In this document: positions 14,825 to 21,772 of the stretch, one piece after another
Layout of the letters: each line of letters begins with the position of its first letter
Position numbering within the stretch: the first letter of the stretch is position 1
Origin: Candidatus Kapaibacterium sp.
Lineage (GTDB): Bacteria > Bacteroidota > Ignavibacteria > Kapaibacteriales > HRBIN21
Assembly (NCBI GenBank): GCA_938084565.1
Contig: CALKEU010000014.1
Coordinates: forward strand, 1 to 49,911
Length of the DNA stretch: 49,911 nucleotides
Reading direction: 5' to 3'
The notes under the pieces: model-generated
The model's database searches: none
The model's input: only the letters and a program-made list of their open reading frames with translations
Told to the model about the DNA's origin: nothing
Translations under genes and position numbers: made by a program

Positions 14825-15892
14825 ATGCGCGTCCGCACCTACAGGGCTCCGAGTATGCACGAGGCACTCCGCTCGATGCGGCGGGAGTTGGGCGAAAGCG
14901 CCATTATTCTCTCCACGCATACCCTCCGTCTGGACGACGGCACCGAACTGGTGGAGCTCCACGCCGTCCCCGAGCAGGAGATGACCTCTCTGCCACCCTC
15001 TGCCGATGGAAATCCATGGGCAGAGAGCTCGTGGGTTTCTGACCTCCGGAGGGAACTCCTCACTCTGCGGCAGCAGCTCAATATGCTCGAAGCCCTTTTA
15101 CGTTTCAACACAAGTCCCGATCCCCTTTGGCAGCGACTCTATACAGCCCTACGTGCTGAAGGGTTCACCGATGAGTTCCTTCTACGACGTCTGCCGCCAA
15201 CACAGCCAGTCTCCTCCTGGAAAGAGCTACTCTTGCGGGCTCGGCAGCACCTGACGAACCACATTCGCACGGCCGATCCCCCGCTGCCGAGCACGGGACC
15301 GCTCCGTCTCCTCGTCCTTGGAGCACCTGGTTCGGGCAAGACTTCAACCCTGCTCAAGCTGCTCCTGATGTACAAACTGCTGCACCATCTGCCATGCTTC
15401 TTGATTAGCACTGAAGCTCACAGGCTGGGGGCACTTGAACAGCTCCAGCTGTTCTCCTCCATTGCCGATATTCCTCTGGCGGAGGCCTATACTGTACAGG
15501 AGCTCCGCCACCATTTGGCGGCCCATCCTCCATCGCCCATGGTTGTGGGAATTGAGTTGCCTGGCGGGAACCCCTTCCGAGCTGAGATCCGCCAGCAGTG
15601 GCAGCGCTACGTAGATATCGTACGCCCAGAGGCTCTCTACGGTGTCCTCAGTGCAACGGATGCGCTCCCTCTCCTCCGACGCCTGCTCCAGCTGTGGCAC
15701 GATCTTGGCGTGACAGGCCTCATCCTAACTAAGCTCGATCTAGCTCCCAGCGTAGCCCCAGTCGTTGAAGCACTCGAGCACTCAGAGCTGCCAGTCATCT
15801 ACTTCTGCACCGGTCCACGAATTCCGGAGGATATCGAACCTGCACGCAGTCAGGCACTAGCGTATCGTATCGGCACAGTGGAGGAACCATGA
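14825..15892 (+). CDS. flhF: Flagellar SRP-like GTPase FlhF (diverged)
   Basis: FlhF is an SRP-family GTPase that sets flagellar position and number at the pole. This 355-residue protein has the typical N-terminus (MRVRTYRAPSMHEALRSMRRELGESAIILST), a helical N domain and a G domain. G1 is GAPGSGKTS (166-174). HRLGALEQLQLF (199-210) matches FlhF's RIGAxEQL segment. G4 is TKLD (302-305), and RIPEDIEPA closes the domain. G2 lacks the usual DTYR and reads STEAHR. The DTAGR of G3 is replaced by ELPGG (244-248). GTP hydrolysis may therefore be impaired. It opens a tightly overlapping operon and overlaps flhG by 4 bp. Confidence 0.85.
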   Translation: MRVRTYRAPSMHEALRSMRRELGESAIILSTHTLRLDDGTELVELHAVPEQEMTSLPPSADGNPWAESSWVSDLRRELLTLRQQLNMLEALLRFNTSPDPLWQRLYTALRAEGFTDEFLLRRLPPTQPVSSWKELLLRARQHLTNHIRTADPPLPSTGPLRLLVLGAPGSGKTSTLLKLLLMYKLLHHLPCFLISTEAHRLGALEQLQLFSSIADIPLAEAYTVQELRHHLAAHPPSPMVVGIELPGGNPFRAEIRQQWQRYVDIVRPEALYGVLSATDALPLLRRLLQLWHDLGVTGLILTKLDLAPSVAPVVEALEHSELPVIYFCTGPRIPEDIEPARSQALAYRIGTVEEP

Positions 15893-16677
15893 GCAAGGAG
15901 TCCACCCGCATTGTGGCCCTCTGTAGTGGGCGCCCGGGGTTAGGAAAGAGCACCACAGCAGCCAATCTGGCTGCTGCTGCCGCTCGAGAGGGTATCCTCT
16001 GCCTCCTCTGGGATGCCCAGCTGAATTCCCCGCGTCTGCACCTCCACTATGGCCTGAATCCCGTTGCCACGGCCTCAGATGCTTACCTTGGAAGCGCTCG
16101 CATCGAGACCATCCCCATACGGCTCCGTCCACATCTGTGGCTTTTACCAGAGCGCACACTCAACGGCGATGCTGAAGCACAGCTGACAGGAGCTTTTCCT
16201 GCCCTGCTACAGGAACTCATCCACCATCGACGTCCGGAGCTCATCCTCATTAACCTCCCACCCGGATGGTCGGGGCTGGCTGCTACGGTCTGCCAAAGAG
16301 CAGATCTGTGTTGCCTCGTCATGGGCGAGGATATTGGCTCCATTCTGGACACCTACGCCTTCCTGAAAGCCCTCTTGGCAAGTTCCCGTAAGCCCCCCCG
16401 CCTTGGGCTGATCGTCACGGGGATTGTCGAGGTCACGGAAGCTTGTGTGCTCGCAGACAAGCTCAACGCTGCTACAGCCCGATTCCTCGGCCAGCGGATA
16501 CCACTGCTCGGGGCCATCCCGTATGAGCCTCGGCATCGGACGGCGCTCTTGCAGCAGCAGCCCTTCCTGGAAGCCTTCCCCGAAACAGAGGCCGCTCTCC
16601 TCTACCGCAGGCTTCTGCACCGATGTGTCGTAACACACCAGGCAGATCATGCCGGGAAAATCGCGCAGGAGTGGTGA
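15889..16677 (+). CDS. flhG: Flagellar number regulator FlhG (MinD-like ATPase, diverged)
   Basis: FlhG is a ParA/MinD-family ATPase that restrains flagellar number and activates the FlhF GTPase. This 262-residue product has the fold, with the P-loop at about 13-22 (GRPGLGKSTT) followed by AANLAAAAAR, a D in LLWDAQ, and a C-terminal amphipathic region. The signature lysine of the deviant Walker A (KGGxGK) is Arg here. The Walker B Asp is Asn (LINLPPGWSG). Both changes touch residues tied to dimerisation or hydrolysis. It overlaps flhF by ATGA and the next small gene by 29 bp. Confidence 0.85.
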   Translation: MSKESTRIVALCSGRPGLGKSTTAANLAAAAAREGILCLLWDAQLNSPRLHLHYGLNPVATASDAYLGSARIETIPIRLRPHLWLLPERTLNGDAEAQLTGAFPALLQELIHHRRPELILINLPPGWSGLAATVCQRADLCCLVMGEDIGSILDTYAFLKALLASSRKPPRLGLIVTGIVEVTEACVLADKLNAATARFLGQRIPLLGAIPYEPRHRTALLQQQPFLEAFPETEAALLYRRLLHRCVVTHQADHAGKIAQEW

Positions 16678-16933
16678 AACCGTCAGCTTTGTCTTCTCCG
16701 TCAGCCTATTGGCTGGGTGCGTTGCAGTGATTATCTTTGCTCTACAACCGGAGCTGGCGACCGAAGCTGTCCTATTGCGAGCCTTTATTGTCTTTGTGGC
16801 CGCTGCCACAGCAACGACTTTCTTCCTAGTGCTGTGGCGTCCAGGACGGAGGGGAGCGGGAAGCCAAGTGCTGGAGGGTCCGTCCAGTCGAGGTGCCCAT
16901 GAGGAGCCACCGCAGATACCAACTCAGCGCTGA
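16649..16933 (+). CDS. Small two-helix membrane protein in flagellar operon
   Basis: This 94-residue protein has two predicted membrane helices (about 12-32 and 43-63) and a polar, Gly/Pro-rich cytoplasmic tail. No family is recognised. It starts inside the end of flhG (29-bp overlap) and ends inside the start of fliA (35-bp overlap), so its translation is bound to both neighbours. A similar unnamed small membrane gene sits between flhG and fliA in some other bacteria, which supports a real gene. Confidence 0.65.
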   Translation: MPGKSRRSGETVSFVFSVSLLAGCVAVIIFALQPELATEAVLLRAFIVFVAAATATTFFLVLWRPGRRGAGSQVLEGPSSRGAHEEPPQIPTQR

Positions 16934-17702
16934 AGAGCTCCCCCAGGTATGGCAACGCTACTGGGAACGGCGCGCCGACGAGGATCGCCAGCGCCTCATC
17001 CTCCACTACCTCTGGTTAGTCCGCTACGTCATCCACTCCCTCTCCCTTCCCGAGCACAGCTCGCTGAGCCAAGAGGACTTGGAGCACGTCGGCGTGCTCG
17101 GACTCAATGAAGCCATTGAGCGCTTCAACCCCAGCCGGGGCACGAAGTTCGAAACCTACGCTCTGGTACGCATCCGCGGAGCAATTCTGGACGAGCTCCG
17201 CAAGCTGGACTGGCTCAGCCGCAGTGCCCGCCGCAAGGTCCAAGCATACCAACAAGCCGCCGACGCACTCCAGCAGACCCTTGGGCATGAAGCTTCCGCG
17301 GAAGCCATCCGCCAGTGGCTCGGGGTCCCACCGGAGATCTACCGCTCGTATCTACGGGCCGTGGAAGCAGCTCAAGCTTCGTTCTCCTTCTATGATCCCC
17401 CAGCTGCTCCACCGACAACCGAGGAGGAGGAACCGGCCAACCCCCTGGAAGAGCTGGCCGATCCTCATGCAGCCGACCCGGCCGAGAAACTGTCACGACA
17501 GCAGCTCCTTCAGGCCGTGATGGATTATCTTGAACGGCTCCCTGAACGAAAGCGCCTGGTCATCGTGCTCTACTACTACGAAGGGCTGACCTTCCGCGAA
17601 ATCGGACAATTGCTCAACCTCACCGAAAGCCGAGTCTGCCAAATCCATGCCAAGGTACTGGAAGAGCTCCGTATCCATCTCCGCGCTCACCACCATGGTT
17701 GA
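16899..17702 (+). CDS. fliA: RNA polymerase sigma factor FliA (sigma-28)
   Basis: FliA is the sigma factor for late flagellar and chemotaxis genes. The 267-residue product has region 2 with LILHYLWLVRYV and the FETYALVRIRGAILDELR segment typical of FliA/WhiG, a region 3, an acidic linker of about 25 residues (about 165-190), and region 4 with the helix-turn-helix LTFREIGQLLNLTESRVCQIHAKVL. ATG 16899 is preferred; GTG 16893 in the same frame is an alternative. No FlgM anti-sigma gene and no flagellar structural gene is in the window. It overlaps the HDOD gene by 8 bp. Confidence 0.92.
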   Translation: MRSHRRYQLSAEELPQVWQRYWERRADEDRQRLILHYLWLVRYVIHSLSLPEHSSLSQEDLEHVGVLGLNEAIERFNPSRGTKFETYALVRIRGAILDELRKLDWLSRSARRKVQAYQQAADALQQTLGHEASAEAIRQWLGVPPEIYRSYLRAVEAAQASFSFYDPPAAPPTTEEEEPANPLEELADPHAADPAEKLSRQQLLQAVMDYLERLPERKRLVIVLYYYEGLTFREIGQLLNLTESRVCQIHAKVLEELRIHLRAHHHG

Positions 17703-18615
17703 CAACCCACTCGCCCACCGTCTCGGGCACATTGAGCAGCTCCCTACCATACCACCGCTTGTTGCCGAGAGCCTCCGCCTGCTTGGAGAGCCGAACGCTA
17801 GTGCCACACAGATTGCCCAGTTCATTGAGCGCGATCAGGCCTTGACGGCACGGTTGCTACGCGTGGCAAACTCTCCTCTCTACGGTTTTCCACGGCGTAT
17901 TAGCACAGTGCGCTTAGCTATCTCGCTTCTGGGCAATGAGGCTGTGCGCCAAATCCTTGTAGCTGCCGCGCTCTATGATCTGGTCACGGTCAAATCCGGT
18001 GTCCAGTGGGAACGTGAGCTCTTCTGGCATTACTGTCTCTACTGCGCCGTGGCGGCTCGCTCCTTTGCCCGGCGCGTAGGCTATCGCCGGGCTGGGGAAG
18101 CCTTCACTGCCGCACTCCTCCACGATCTCGGTGTCCTGCTCATGGCAGCCTACCTCCCGGCCGAATATACTGCCGTGGTACGCCACCAACAATACTCGGG
18201 CTGCTCGCGTCTTGAGGCCGAACAGCTCGTCATCGGTACCACACATGCCCAGCTCGGTGCATGGCTTGCCGAGCAGTGGAATCTGCCCCCGAGTTTGGTA
18301 GCAGCTCTTGCCTACCACCACACGGCCGATCCGCCACCTGTGACCGAGCAGAGTGGCCATGGTGTGCCGCCCCCACTCAACCAGCTCGCACAGCCGCTCA
18401 CCGCCCTGGTAGCTACAGCTGAGTATCTGGCCCATTGGAAAGGGCTGCGGCGATGGTCTGCCGAAGAGACCCTCCAATCCCCACTCTATCTGCCCGATCC
18501 CTTGTGGCAGCTGTATTTGGCATGCGAGCTGATAGAACCTACAGGCGAGCCCACCTCAACCCTAGATGCAGAGGTAGAGGCGGCGTACCATTGCCTGGCT
18601 GAGGCACTGTGGTAG
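17695..18615 (+). CDS. HDOD domain signalling protein
   Basis: This 306-residue protein consists mostly of an HDOD domain, a non-catalytic relative of HD phosphohydrolases that scaffolds signalling proteins. Recognisable pieces are LPTIPPLV near residue 16, the core IERDQALTARLLRVANSPLYGF (about 43-64), and LLHDLGVLLMA near 142-152. ATG 17695 lies in the end of fliA (8-bp overlap). HDOD proteins next to fliA and histidine kinases often take part in motility or biofilm control, but no partner is proven here. The histidine kinase follows after 6 bp. Confidence 0.9.
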   Translation: MVDNPLAHRLGHIEQLPTIPPLVAESLRLLGEPNASATQIAQFIERDQALTARLLRVANSPLYGFPRRISTVRLAISLLGNEAVRQILVAAALYDLVTVKSGVQWERELFWHYCLYCAVAARSFARRVGYRRAGEAFTAALLHDLGVLLMAAYLPAEYTAVVRHQQYSGCSRLEAEQLVIGTTHAQLGAWLAEQWNLPPSLVAALAYHHTADPPPVTEQSGHGVPPPLNQLAQPLTALVATAEYLAHWKGLRRWSAEETLQSPLYLPDPLWQLYLACELIEPTGEPTSTLDAEVEAAYHCLAEALW

Positions 18616-18621
18616 AAACCG

Positions 18622-19944
18622 ATGGCCCCAGAGCCCCCATCCTGGGAAGAGCTCCGAGAGCAGGAGCAGCGATACGTGCACCTGCTGGAACTCCGCTGTG
18701 AGCTCCTGCAGCGGGAGGTTGAGTACCTCCGACAGCAACTGACGCAGTACCTGGCCGGCTCCCCACGCCGCGATCTCTCCGACATCCGCCAGCTCTTGAC
18801 AATCTCTGAGCCGGAGGAACTCCTGGAGCGGGCACGCCTTCTCCTCCAGCAGTGGACACAGGCTACCGATACGTATGCCATCCGCCTTGCCCCCGATGGA
18901 GCTCTCCAGGTTTATCCGGCAACCTACACAGAGCACGCCCGCACGCTCACCGAAGAGGGTGTCCTCGACTGGCTTACCGAACACGGTAGCCCTACTCTCC
19001 TGCCAGACCTCTTCGGCGGTGCAGAAGCCACAGGCACACTCCTGTTGCTCCCCCTAGGAGAGTCGGGTCAACGGCTGGGGGCCCTTGTCGCCCTCAAGGT
19101 CCCCGCAACTCTGCCATTGGCGGAACTCCGCGAGCAGCTCCAGTACATGGGCATCCTCCTCGGAGTCCTGCTCGACAATGCTGAGAGCTCTCGCACAGCT
19201 ACCCTCCTGCATGAGCGCCTCCAGCACCTGCAGCGTACACTCCAACAGACCGAAACGGTTGCAACGCTAGGCAAAATAACCAGCATCCTCATCCACGAAC
19301 TCAGCAACCCTCTACAAGCTCTCCTCTCCTACGCAGAGCTCATCGAAGCCGGAGTCGGTGATACCCGCAGCCATGCTTACTCCCTCCGGCGCGAACTGCT
19401 CCGCTTAAACCAACTGCTCAACGAGCTGCGCCATATGATTCGCCGTCCCGATGCCGTGCTGGAGCAACATCCCGTTGATGTTGCTGCCGTTATCGAACGG
19501 ACCTTGCAGCTGCTGAACGTACAGTTTCAACGCGATCGAATCACGGTTCGCTGCGAGCAGGAGGCTCCAGCAACATGCATTCTCGGCCATGCTGGCCAGC
19601 TCGAGCAGCTTTTCGTCAATCTGTTTCTGAATGCCCGCGATGCCATGCCTGGAGGGGGGCTCCTCCACATCCGCCTCCGCACGGAAGGGAAGGAACTTGT
19701 CATCGAGTGCCAGGACTCCGGCATTGGTATGCCAGCGGAGCTGCTCGAGCGTGTCTTTGAGCCTTTCTTCACCACGAAAGCCCATGGCTCCGGACTCGGA
19801 CTCACGATATGCCGCGACATCGTGGAACGCCACGGCGGCACGCTGGCTCTCTCTTCGCAGCCTGGAGCTGGAACGACAGTGATCCTGCGCTTCCCGCTGT
19901 TGCAGGATGTCCCACCAGAGACCACCTCTTCCTCATGCGGATAG
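18622..19944 (+). CDS. Cytoplasmic sensor histidine kinase (GAF-like sensor)
   Basis: This 440-residue kinase has no membrane helices. Residues 1-45 form a short coiled coil. About 60-190 read as a GAF-like sensory domain. The H-box is ILIHELSNPLQALLSY with His225. The ATPase domain has the N-box NLFLNARDAMPGGG, the G1 box DSGIGMP and the G2 box HGSGLGL. The layout resembles NtrB/FlrB-type kinases that control flagellar genes, but no response regulator is encoded nearby. It follows the HDOD gene by 6 bp and overlaps the next gene by 10 bp. Confidence 0.92.
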   Translation: MAPEPPSWEELREQEQRYVHLLELRCELLQREVEYLRQQLTQYLAGSPRRDLSDIRQLLTISEPEELLERARLLLQQWTQATDTYAIRLAPDGALQVYPATYTEHARTLTEEGVLDWLTEHGSPTLLPDLFGGAEATGTLLLLPLGESGQRLGALVALKVPATLPLAELREQLQYMGILLGVLLDNAESSRTATLLHERLQHLQRTLQQTETVATLGKITSILIHELSNPLQALLSYAELIEAGVGDTRSHAYSLRRELLRLNQLLNELRHMIRRPDAVLEQHPVDVAAVIERTLQLLNVQFQRDRITVRCEQEAPATCILGHAGQLEQLFVNLFLNARDAMPGGGLLHIRLRTEGKELVIECQDSGIGMPAELLERVFEPFFTTKAHGSGLGLTICRDIVERHGGTLALSSQPGAGTTVILRFPLLQDVPPETTSSSCG

Positions 19945-21371
19945 GATCCCTTGCGAGCATCGTTTGGTGTATGCTCTCCATCGGCCTCTCGGCCACAACA
20001 CTGGAGCAGATCCAGCGCGACGAGCGCGGCCGCATTCTGCTTTTCTGCTCTGCTCAGCCCTTGAGCTGGCGCTCAGAGCTATCGGCCGACAAACGGCGCA
20101 TTCTCCTCATGTTTCCGGGGCTGAGGCCATCTGCTGAGCTCCGCCCCCGAATGTGGAGCGATGGGCTCGTGCGCGAGGTCTACCCGAAGCGGAGCGGTGA
20201 TAGCTTGCAGCTCTACGTAACGCTGGCTGCTCCCAGCGGGTATAGCACCCTCTGGCTCCCTTACAGCCGCTGCCTCCTGCTGACTCTTTTCTCCTGGGAG
20301 GAGCTTCCACCCGAGGAAGAGCTCTACCATAGTGCCCTCCTGGCACTGGAGTTGCGCTCAGAGAGTGTGGCTGAGAGCTTGCTCACACAAGCAGCCGACC
20401 GGGGTTCTGCCGATGCGGCCGCTGTGTTGGCTGGCCACTCACTCGCTGCAGGCAAGCCGCTTACTGCCTTGCGATGGCTGCGACAAGCATGGGAGCGGAG
20501 CACACTTCCAGAACCATATGGCATTGCTGCCCATCTGGCCGCCCTGAGTGGGCAGATCACCCTCTCTCACCAGCTGGCCGAGCACTTCCGTGCCCTCACA
20601 GGTCGCCCGCTCCCCCCACCGCCTCCCGTGCCGATCGACAGCTCTGCAGCCCTCACGGAAGCTTTCCTCCTTGCCCCGCTCGAATTCAGCCCCACCCCAT
20701 CCGACAGCGTCCTTGTGGCGAGTAAAGCACCGCCCGACACTCTTTCTCCACCCCCTCCACCGGCGACTGGAAGCGTCCCTGACTGGCTCCTGCTCTGGAG
20801 CCCACTCTTCTTCACCATTATAGCCCTCTTCGCCATCAGCTCCATCCTCCGCACTCTGCTACGGGTCCTTCGCAAACCCTCGCCATCTTCGGTCTCGGCC
20901 TCTCCCACCGCCTTCCCTGGCTATGTCCGAGAAGCATTGCAACACTATCGCGCCGCCGAAGATCGGGCACGCACAACCTCTACCGAGCAAACCGATGCGG
21001 TACCATCGGTTCCGAATCCGCACGAGACCTCGACCATGGTACCCCCTCCCGTTCATGCTCAGCCGCCTGAAGAGAGAGAGCTCAGCACACCGACACCGGA
21101 ATTAGCACAGCTGTGGCGGCAACGCCTCCGGCAGCGTTCGGCATACCTTCAGCAACGGCTCTCCCACTTAGGGGAAACCCTGCCAGCTACCCCCGAGGCA
21201 CGACAGCGTCTAGCCCGCCGCCTCCGCATCCCGTCGGAAAGTCTCGAACTGCGCTACCGTCTCCACTCCGTGGATCCAGAGCGCCTGTTTGCCCGTTTCC
21301 GCCGCACCCCAGAACCTCCGTCATTCGTCTCTGCTGCCGGTACAGAGTCCCACTCATCGGTGCAGGGATGA
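19935..21371 (+). CDS. Membrane-anchored protein with AMIN-like N-domain and repeats
   Basis: This 478-residue protein has an N-terminal signal/anchor (about 1-20), then about 100 residues of short strands resembling an AMIN-type beta domain (RILLMFPG, LQLYVTL). An Ala/Leu-rich helical stretch with Sel1/TPR flavour follows (about 130-215), then a Pro/Ser-rich linker. A strong membrane helix lies at about 282-310, followed by a basic cytoplasmic tail of about 165 residues. The family is not recognised. AMIN-like domains bind peptidoglycan or secretin-type envelope machines, so an envelope-spanning adaptor is plausible. It overlaps the kinase by 10 bp and the sorting-domain gene by 4 bp. Confidence 0.7.
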   Translation: MRIGSLASIVWCMLSIGLSATTLEQIQRDERGRILLFCSAQPLSWRSELSADKRRILLMFPGLRPSAELRPRMWSDGLVREVYPKRSGDSLQLYVTLAAPSGYSTLWLPYSRCLLLTLFSWEELPPEEELYHSALLALELRSESVAESLLTQAADRGSADAAAVLAGHSLAAGKPLTALRWLRQAWERSTLPEPYGIAAHLAALSGQITLSHQLAEHFRALTGRPLPPPPPVPIDSSAALTEAFLLAPLEFSPTPSDSVLVASKAPPDTLSPPPPPATGSVPDWLLLWSPLFFTIIALFAISSILRTLLRVLRKPSPSSVSASPTAFPGYVREALQHYRAAEDRARTTSTEQTDAVPSVPNPHETSTMVPPPVHAQPPEERELSTPTPELAQLWRQRLRQRSAYLQQRLSHLGETLPATPEARQRLARRLRIPSESLELRYRLHSVDPERLFARFRRTPEPPSFVSAAGTESHSSVQG

Positions 21372-21772
21372 AGTACGCAGTACTCGTGGGTAGCATCGCT
21401 ATCGTGCTCGCCTTCCCGGTGCAGGCCCGCTGGGCCGCTCCGACCAAAGCAGAGGGCACCCCTTCCATATCGTCGCAGGGGGAACGCCGCGCCGTGGCGG
21501 ATTCTCTCCCACGGGAAAATCGCATCCAGTCAATCCGGGAAACTGCCGATGGCCATGTCGTCACTGTCGAACTCGCCGTGGAGCAGAACCGCCTCGATAT
21601 TGGGGTTTACAACCTCCTGGGCAAGCGAGTCGTAACGGTCTACCAAGGGAAGGCTGCTGCCGGGATTCGCGAGTATCCCATACCGACCGGCGGTCTCCCT
21701 AACGGCATTTACATCTGCCTCGTCCAAGGGGATGGCTTTCGACTGGCACAGAAGTTTGTGCTGTCGCGCTAA
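21368..21772 (+). CDS. Mini secreted protein made of signal peptide plus T9SS sorting domain
   Basis: This 134-residue protein has a signal peptide (1-20, ending in VQA), a polar linker of about 30 residues, and then about 80 residues that match a type A T9SS C-terminal sorting domain. The key pieces are VTVEL, the strand IGVYNLLGKRV, the turn GGLPNGIYICLV, and a basic Lys-Phe-Val end (QKFVLSR). No cargo domain is present. T9SS sorting domains route proteins through the outer membrane. A stand-alone one may be a signal or adaptor rather than an enzyme. The start overlaps the previous stop (ATGA), and the 3' end overlaps the PorV-like gene by 41 bp. Confidence 0.85.
   Translation: MKYAVLVGSIAIVLAFPVQARWAAPTKAEGTPSISSQGERRAVADSLPRENRIQSIRETADGHVVTVELAVEQNRLDIGVYNLLGKRVVTVYQGKAAAGIREYPIPTGGLPNGIYICLVQGDGFRLAQKFVLSR

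Follow-up and report, generated by a model that had tools for sequence, protein, structure and literature searches.

What can a sorting domain do in a protein that carries no cargo? The question is raised by C0 (positions 21368..21772, + strand), an open reading frame of 134 aa in the 49,911-nucleotide stretch of DNA analysed here (the window), which is contig C14 of a 1.87-Mb genome of Candidatus Kapaibacterium sp. Type A sorting domains of the type 9 secretion system (T9SS) are regarded as labels, which are removed from most cargoes and are all served by one shuttle, PorV. A sequence-only reading of the window had described C0 as a stand-alone sorting domain encoded near a PorV-like barrel and a histidine kinase, and had considered for it a secretion-state signal comparable to PorA, a plug or an adaptor. 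The explanation favoured here, with a probability of about 0.5, is that C0 represents a conserved T9SS surface component that docks via its sorting domain on PorV-family barrels, the co-encoded barrel C1 being its holder in flagellates.

The C0 product and the T9SS of its genome

According to its translation, C0 is composed of a signal-peptide-like stretch, MKYAVLVGSIAIVLAFPVQA, recognised by eye, followed by a linker of about 24 residues and by the domain. The putative signal peptide covers approximately residues 1-20, ending in ...AFPVQA (21368..21427), and forms a helix over residues 3-14 in the structural model. The variable linker (residues 21-44, 21428..21499) is modelled with low confidence. 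The domain starts with a segment, D[ST]xx[RK]xx[RK]I (residues 45-53, 21500..21526), that is near-invariant in an alignment of 46 orthologues, D45 being kept in 45/46 of them and R/K52 in 41/46; it is possible that this segment serves as a PorU-type site or as a docking motif. All these features, and those of C0 described below, lie on the + strand. TIGR04183, the model that defines type A, matches residues 70-131 of C0 with 28.1 bits, above its cut-off of 23 bits, and the stand-alone sorting domain with signal peptide and short linker described earlier is real. The same model is matched by 46/46 orthologues at E<=0.01. PF18962 gives 23.4 bits, under the Pfam cut-off of 27, and a PDB sequence search with the C0 profile returned no useful match.

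Modelled on its own, C0 yields the beta-sandwich that the sequence-only reading had anticipated. The AlphaFold2 prediction, based on the 46-sequence alignment, has a mean pLDDT of 83.9, with values mostly of 94-98 over the strands, and consists of seven strands within residues 52-132 (21521..21769). Its structural neighbours in VIA include the CTD of mirolase (Z 9.2), PorU (9.0) and PorZ (8.7). Since other Ig-like domains match the model as well as, or better than, T9SS domains do, the assignment of C0 was made by sequence profile and not by fold.

In P. gingivalis, T9SS export is known to require two elements of the domain, a glycine-containing beta3-beta4 loop and a lysine-containing C-terminal strand (PMC11285876). 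In C0, the beta3-beta4 loop carries the motif NLLGKRV (residues 82-88, 21611..21631), of which N82, L84, G85 and K86 are identical in 46/46 orthologues. K129 (21752..21754), in the C-terminal motif of the last strand, is identical in the same 46/46 and corresponds to the conserved lysine of motif C-t (PMC11285876). The invariance of both export motifs makes it probable that the T9SS carries C0 across the outer membrane. The domain also contains a single cysteine, residue 117 (21716-21718, in the sequence YIC of strand 6), which is kept in 32/46 orthologues and is unexpected for a surface domain.

The genome holds 26 TIGR04183 matches, among which C0 is the shortest (a 233-aa open frame, 134 aa from its ATG), the other 25 lying in open frames of 297-2219 aa. 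Its T9SS set includes PorU followed by PorV, a PorQ-like barrel, a PorU2-like protein followed by another barrel, and a PorZ-like propeller. The true PorV (contig C7, C7:42380) reaches 250.9 bits with the equivalog model NF033710, the best PorQ-like barrel (contig C2, C2:184425) reaches 173 bits against the NF033711 cut-off of 220, and PF21544, the PorZ beta-propeller, is matched on contig C11 (C11:34768). A Pfam profile search of C0 gave no propeller match, and a role of C0 as a substitute for PorZ was rejected on the grounds that the genome has a separate PorZ-like gene. Two further loci combine a large gene with a PorV-family barrel. In L188:18-5591 (contig C7, ~113-118.6 kb), the PorU2-like protein of 1652 aa precedes the barrel, the profile match being in two pieces. 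In L186:3023-7916 (contig C15), a 1271-aa gene without an NCBIfam match is overlapped at its end by a barrel gene that scores 177 bits, the two possibly forming a further partner-barrel pair.

Conservation of C0 within its order

Relatives of C0 are found in 54/61 Kapabacteriales genomes, a conservation that excludes a chance feature. The named relatives are mostly Kapabacteria, or records under looser names for that group (Ignavibacteria, Bacteroidota, Chlorobiota). With gene starts set by a simple rule, and in genomes that are mostly draft assemblies, the orthologues have lengths mostly of 134-214 aa (134-140 within the genus of the window and 147-214 in the named records). Across 118 genomes of the phylum, the C0 family profile attains E 1e-24 or better only within the order; matches outside it, at 3e-14 or weaker and in frames of at least 214 aa, were rejected as cargo domains merely grazed by the profile. 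A record titled Bradyrhizobiaceae bacterium mag.10 (L127, JAGFIZ010000067.1) contains a typical mini sorting-domain gene of the type found in family f2 and is very probably mislabelled. In f2 itself (L085, L089, L113-L115), the mini-domain gene adjoins one for a protein of ~1460 aa that ends in a sorting-domain-like tail, and it often lies beside a PLP-enzyme gene of the kind located downstream of C1 in the window.

Within the mature protein, linker and domain are not equally conserved. Among the 46 orthologues, the domain has a mean pairwise identity of 41%, the linker one of 15%. Nei-Gojobori dN/dS values within the genus, which are rough because synonymous sites are saturated, are lowest in the domain (0.06-0.15), against 0.24-0.31 in the linker and 0.17-0.31 in the barrel C1. 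Over its last 85 residues, C0 shares 82% identity with its counterpart in the genus mate G001, the third highest value of 18 sorting-domain proteins compared; the others share 35-86%, most of them no more than 65%, and in most of them the tag is less conserved than the body. The much stronger conservation of the C0 domain over its linker, together with the low dN/dS of the domain, argues that selection acts on the tag itself.

This pattern bears on the possibility that C0 is a small but ordinary T9SS cargo, in which the linker would be the passenger, PorU would cut at D45, and a tail of 25-80 residues would be released or attached to surface polysaccharide. The near-invariant D45-[ST]46 pair is situated 89-98 residues before the C-terminus in the 46 orthologues, at about the right distance for such a cut, and the genome has PorU. 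The 112-aa CTD protein Fjoh_0547 resembles C0 in its near-minimal size, and we know of no pairing of it with a barrel. It offers a Flavobacterium precedent for so small a CTD protein, reported to be secreted without SprA or PorV (PMC7712824). However, the stretch that would be the passenger varies in length and is conserved least of all parts of C0, while the tag that would be discarded is the most conserved; in the genus pair, most other sorting-domain proteins display the opposite. Moreover, the PorU cleavage consensus is [TEDN]|[GAS] (PMC10202324); D|S, which fits it, occurs in 14/46 members, whereas 31/46 have D|T, which departs from it. An ordinary cargo is thus unlikely, and a surface component that would keep its domain is preferred.

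Another alternative is suggested by a form of ~500 aa that occupies the C0 locus in families f5, f8, f10 and parts of f7, and whose N-terminal part looks propeller-like by eye and has no Pfam match. C0 might then be the truncated remnant of a longer propeller-plus-sorting-domain protein, a possibility that the sequence-only reading had named as evidence against its own proposal. In the tree of the barrel C1, the long forms constitute one group (93/92) inside the short ones, deeper forks being weak, and this nesting indicates that the short form is probably ancestral here. In the C0 tree, which was built from few columns and includes one stray cargo sequence at the end of a long branch, the short forms of f7 are sister to a long one, which makes a later truncation within that family plausible. 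A remnant is also at odds with a dN/dS of C0 well below 1 and with the retention of an own signal peptide and of the short form across families. Given the 54/61 relatives, the dN/dS values and the barrel tree, this explanation fails for the present lineage and is very improbable; as judged from the comparison of sequences, C0 is a conserved gene of its own, without cargo, and not a gene fragment. Unlike C0, a sorting domain in the genus mate (L192, G001:C14:1210-1434), located in a 127-aa frame with the usual PNP start and no evident signal peptide, may be a true gene remnant.

The barrel C1 and the flagellar regulatory block

C1 (21732..22793, + strand), whose start overlaps C0 by 41 nt, encodes an outer-membrane barrel of the PorV/PorQ family. 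The subfamily model NF033709 gives 86.3 bits, narrowly under its cut-off of 90, and is matched by all 31 C1 orthologues at E<=0.01. C1 is the equivalog of neither PorV (NF033710, 26.2 bits vs a cut-off of 250) nor PorQ (NF033711, 62.9 bits vs 220). Its AlphaFold2 model (pLDDT 88) has VIA Z-scores of 32.1 and 31.5 to PorV (8gl6_F: Z 32) and of ~30 to FadL; the predicted fold is that of a FadL/PorV-type barrel, PorV and FadL being inseparable by fold alone. C0 and C1 are adjacent, on the same strand and in the same order in 32/32 genomes in which both were matched, so that the proximity of a sorting-domain gene and a PorV-like barrel noticed in the window holds throughout. Nearly all of their junctions fall within -71 to +17 nt, with -4 and 0 as frequent values, and in G050, where the block is broken, the two genes remain together as a unit ~30 kb from the rest. 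From this arrangement, C0 and C1 are taken to be translationally coupled.

A minimal domain with a coupled barrel, together with the finding that PorV binds isolated CTDs (PMC7712824), would also suit a plug or maturation ligand that sits in a PorV-family barrel until the real cargo or another partner comes. Nevertheless, ~20 genomes possess C0 without a co-encoded barrel, and a plug is accordingly rather improbable. Since C0 persists in these genomes, C1 cannot be its sole partner. A strict dependency of C0 on C1 was rejected, since f2, most of f7 and part of f9 have kept C0 and lack C1.

Upstream of C0, the stop codon of C2 (19935..21371, + strand) overlaps the C0 start (ATGA). The family alignment points to a protein that has a signal peptide and periplasmic TPR-like repeats and that crosses the membrane once, ending in a cytosolic tail, its topology and start being deduced from sequence; profile searches produced only weak TPR matches and no named domain, and the N-terminal part may be AMIN-like. 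C2 is preceded, all on the + strand, by a histidine kinase with HisKA and HATPase_c (18622..19944; PF02518, 96.9 bits), apparently soluble, as its sequence has no obvious membrane segment; by an HDOD-domain protein (17647..18615; PF08668, 205 bits); and by three genes assigned by context, which encode a FliA-type sigma factor (16893..17702; Sigma70_r2/r3/r4), an FlhG-like MinD/ParA ATPase (15889..16677; PF01656/PF10609) and an FlhF-like SRP-type GTPase (14825..15892; PF00448, 63.9 bits). The kinase noted earlier is thus near C0 but is not its immediate neighbour: C2, a membrane protein of ~478 aa, lies between them, and the kinase forms part of an FlhF-FlhG-FliA-HDOD block.

This context is relevant to the proposal that C0 is a PorA-type secretion-state signal acting through the nearby kinase. 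In several families, C0 has a kinase and a sigma factor in its vicinity, and PorA, itself a small CTD protein, is known to bind PorV and to act on PorXY-SigP from upstream (PMC7712824). PorA (PGN_0123) is like C0 in being small and in having a type A sorting domain and a PorV-family partner, which for C0 is presumed. On the other hand, PorA has 246 aa, a FimH-like N-terminal domain and a signalling role (PMC7712824), whereas C0 is devoid of a FimH-like domain and has only ~24 linker residues between its signal peptide and D45. In addition, the kinase is apparently soluble and belongs to the flagellar regulatory block, a block that f2, most of f7 and part of f9 lack while retaining C0. The idea of a PorA-like signal to a two-component system therefore loses most of its ground and is improbable.

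The distribution of C1 and C2 follows that of flagella. C1 is present in 37/61 genomes of the order, and the C2 profile finds the same 37, even where C2 and C1 are unlinked. FlhA is found in 38/61 genomes and agrees with C1 and C2 in 58/61; the exceptions are G003 and G005, where the contig stops before C2, and G013, which has C1 and C2 and no FlhA match. That G003 and G005 truly lack C0, C1 and C2 was rejected, since the apparent gap is explained by contig ends. FlhA, C1 and C2 are jointly missing from f2, from most of f7 and from one genus of f9, which, provided that the families are sound, amounts to three or more separate changes; C0 is retained in these groups. Fisher tests against FlhA, uncorrected for relatedness, give p values of 3e-13 for C1 and for C2 vs 0.24 for C0; as the genomes are related, the correlation rests on ~3-4 independent changes and not on 61 points. 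The match of C1 and C2 with FlhA, and the retention of C0 without it, imply that the barrel and C2 are flagellum-linked and that the role of C0 is wider. In ~20 genomes C0 is present away from both C1 and the flagellar regulatory block, and is hence independent of them. One flagellate, G030 (L106, L244), has C1 and C2 and no detectable C0, and constitutes a natural knock-out of the mini-domain gene. A literature search found no work linking a PorV-family barrel to flagella, and only a passing mention of the T9SS in Kapabacteria.

A proposed surface component held by a barrel

According to the favoured explanation, C0 would be exported by Sec and would cross the outer membrane through the T9SS by means of its type A sorting domain. 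It would then stay on the surface uncleaved, its domain docked on a PorV/PorQ-family barrel in the manner of the uncleaved domains of PorU and PorZ. In flagellates, C1 would be the likely holder, produced in step with C0 via translational coupling; where C1 is missing, PorV or PorQ would have to hold C0. The absence of C0 from G030, despite its C1 and C2, counts against this explanation, as do the 14/46 members whose D|S would suit PorU cleavage and, for the flagellar link, G013 with its missing FlhA match.

A close parallel to the arrangement proposed for C0 is the attachment complex of P. gingivalis, where a PorV-family barrel holds a surface protein whose type A domain is left uncleaved. 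There, PorQ anchors PorZ and PorV anchors PorU (PMC5562754), each protein being held by its barrel (PMC10202324). One Kapabacteria lineage shows a PorZ-like trait, with its propeller-like part before the domain at the C0 locus. Unlike PorZ and PorU, C0 has neither a propeller nor a protease domain, and the genome has its own PorU, PorV, PorQ-like barrel and PorZ-like protein elsewhere; C1, in turn, differs from the PorV and PorQ of the complex in not being the equivalog of either. A second parallel is provided by the type B CTD substrates of Flavobacterium, whose genes are coupled to those of dedicated barrels, as C0 is to C1. For type B domains, cognate barrels have been described and their stoichiometric production has been argued, while the only shuttle described for type A domains is the common PorV (PMC12618676). 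Type B pairs involve PorP/SprF barrels, whereas C0-C1 combines type A with the PorV/PorQ family.

In flagellates, the C0-C1 pair and the inner-membrane protein C2 probably serve a flagellum-linked surface or envelope structure, and we would propose only with low confidence that they act in the placement of the flagellum or in its passage through the envelope. A more elaborate arrangement, in which C0, C1, C2 and the soluble kinase form an envelope-spanning chain tying the T9SS to the flagellum, is doubtful; if it existed, flagellum assembly or placement would depend on, or sense, type 9 secretion. That C1 and C2 track the presence of flagella connects a T9SS protein family with flagella in an unexpected way. 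More generally, a label-only gene with order-wide conservation and a coupled PorV-family barrel of its own suggests that type A domains may also have dedicated partners and can be structural.
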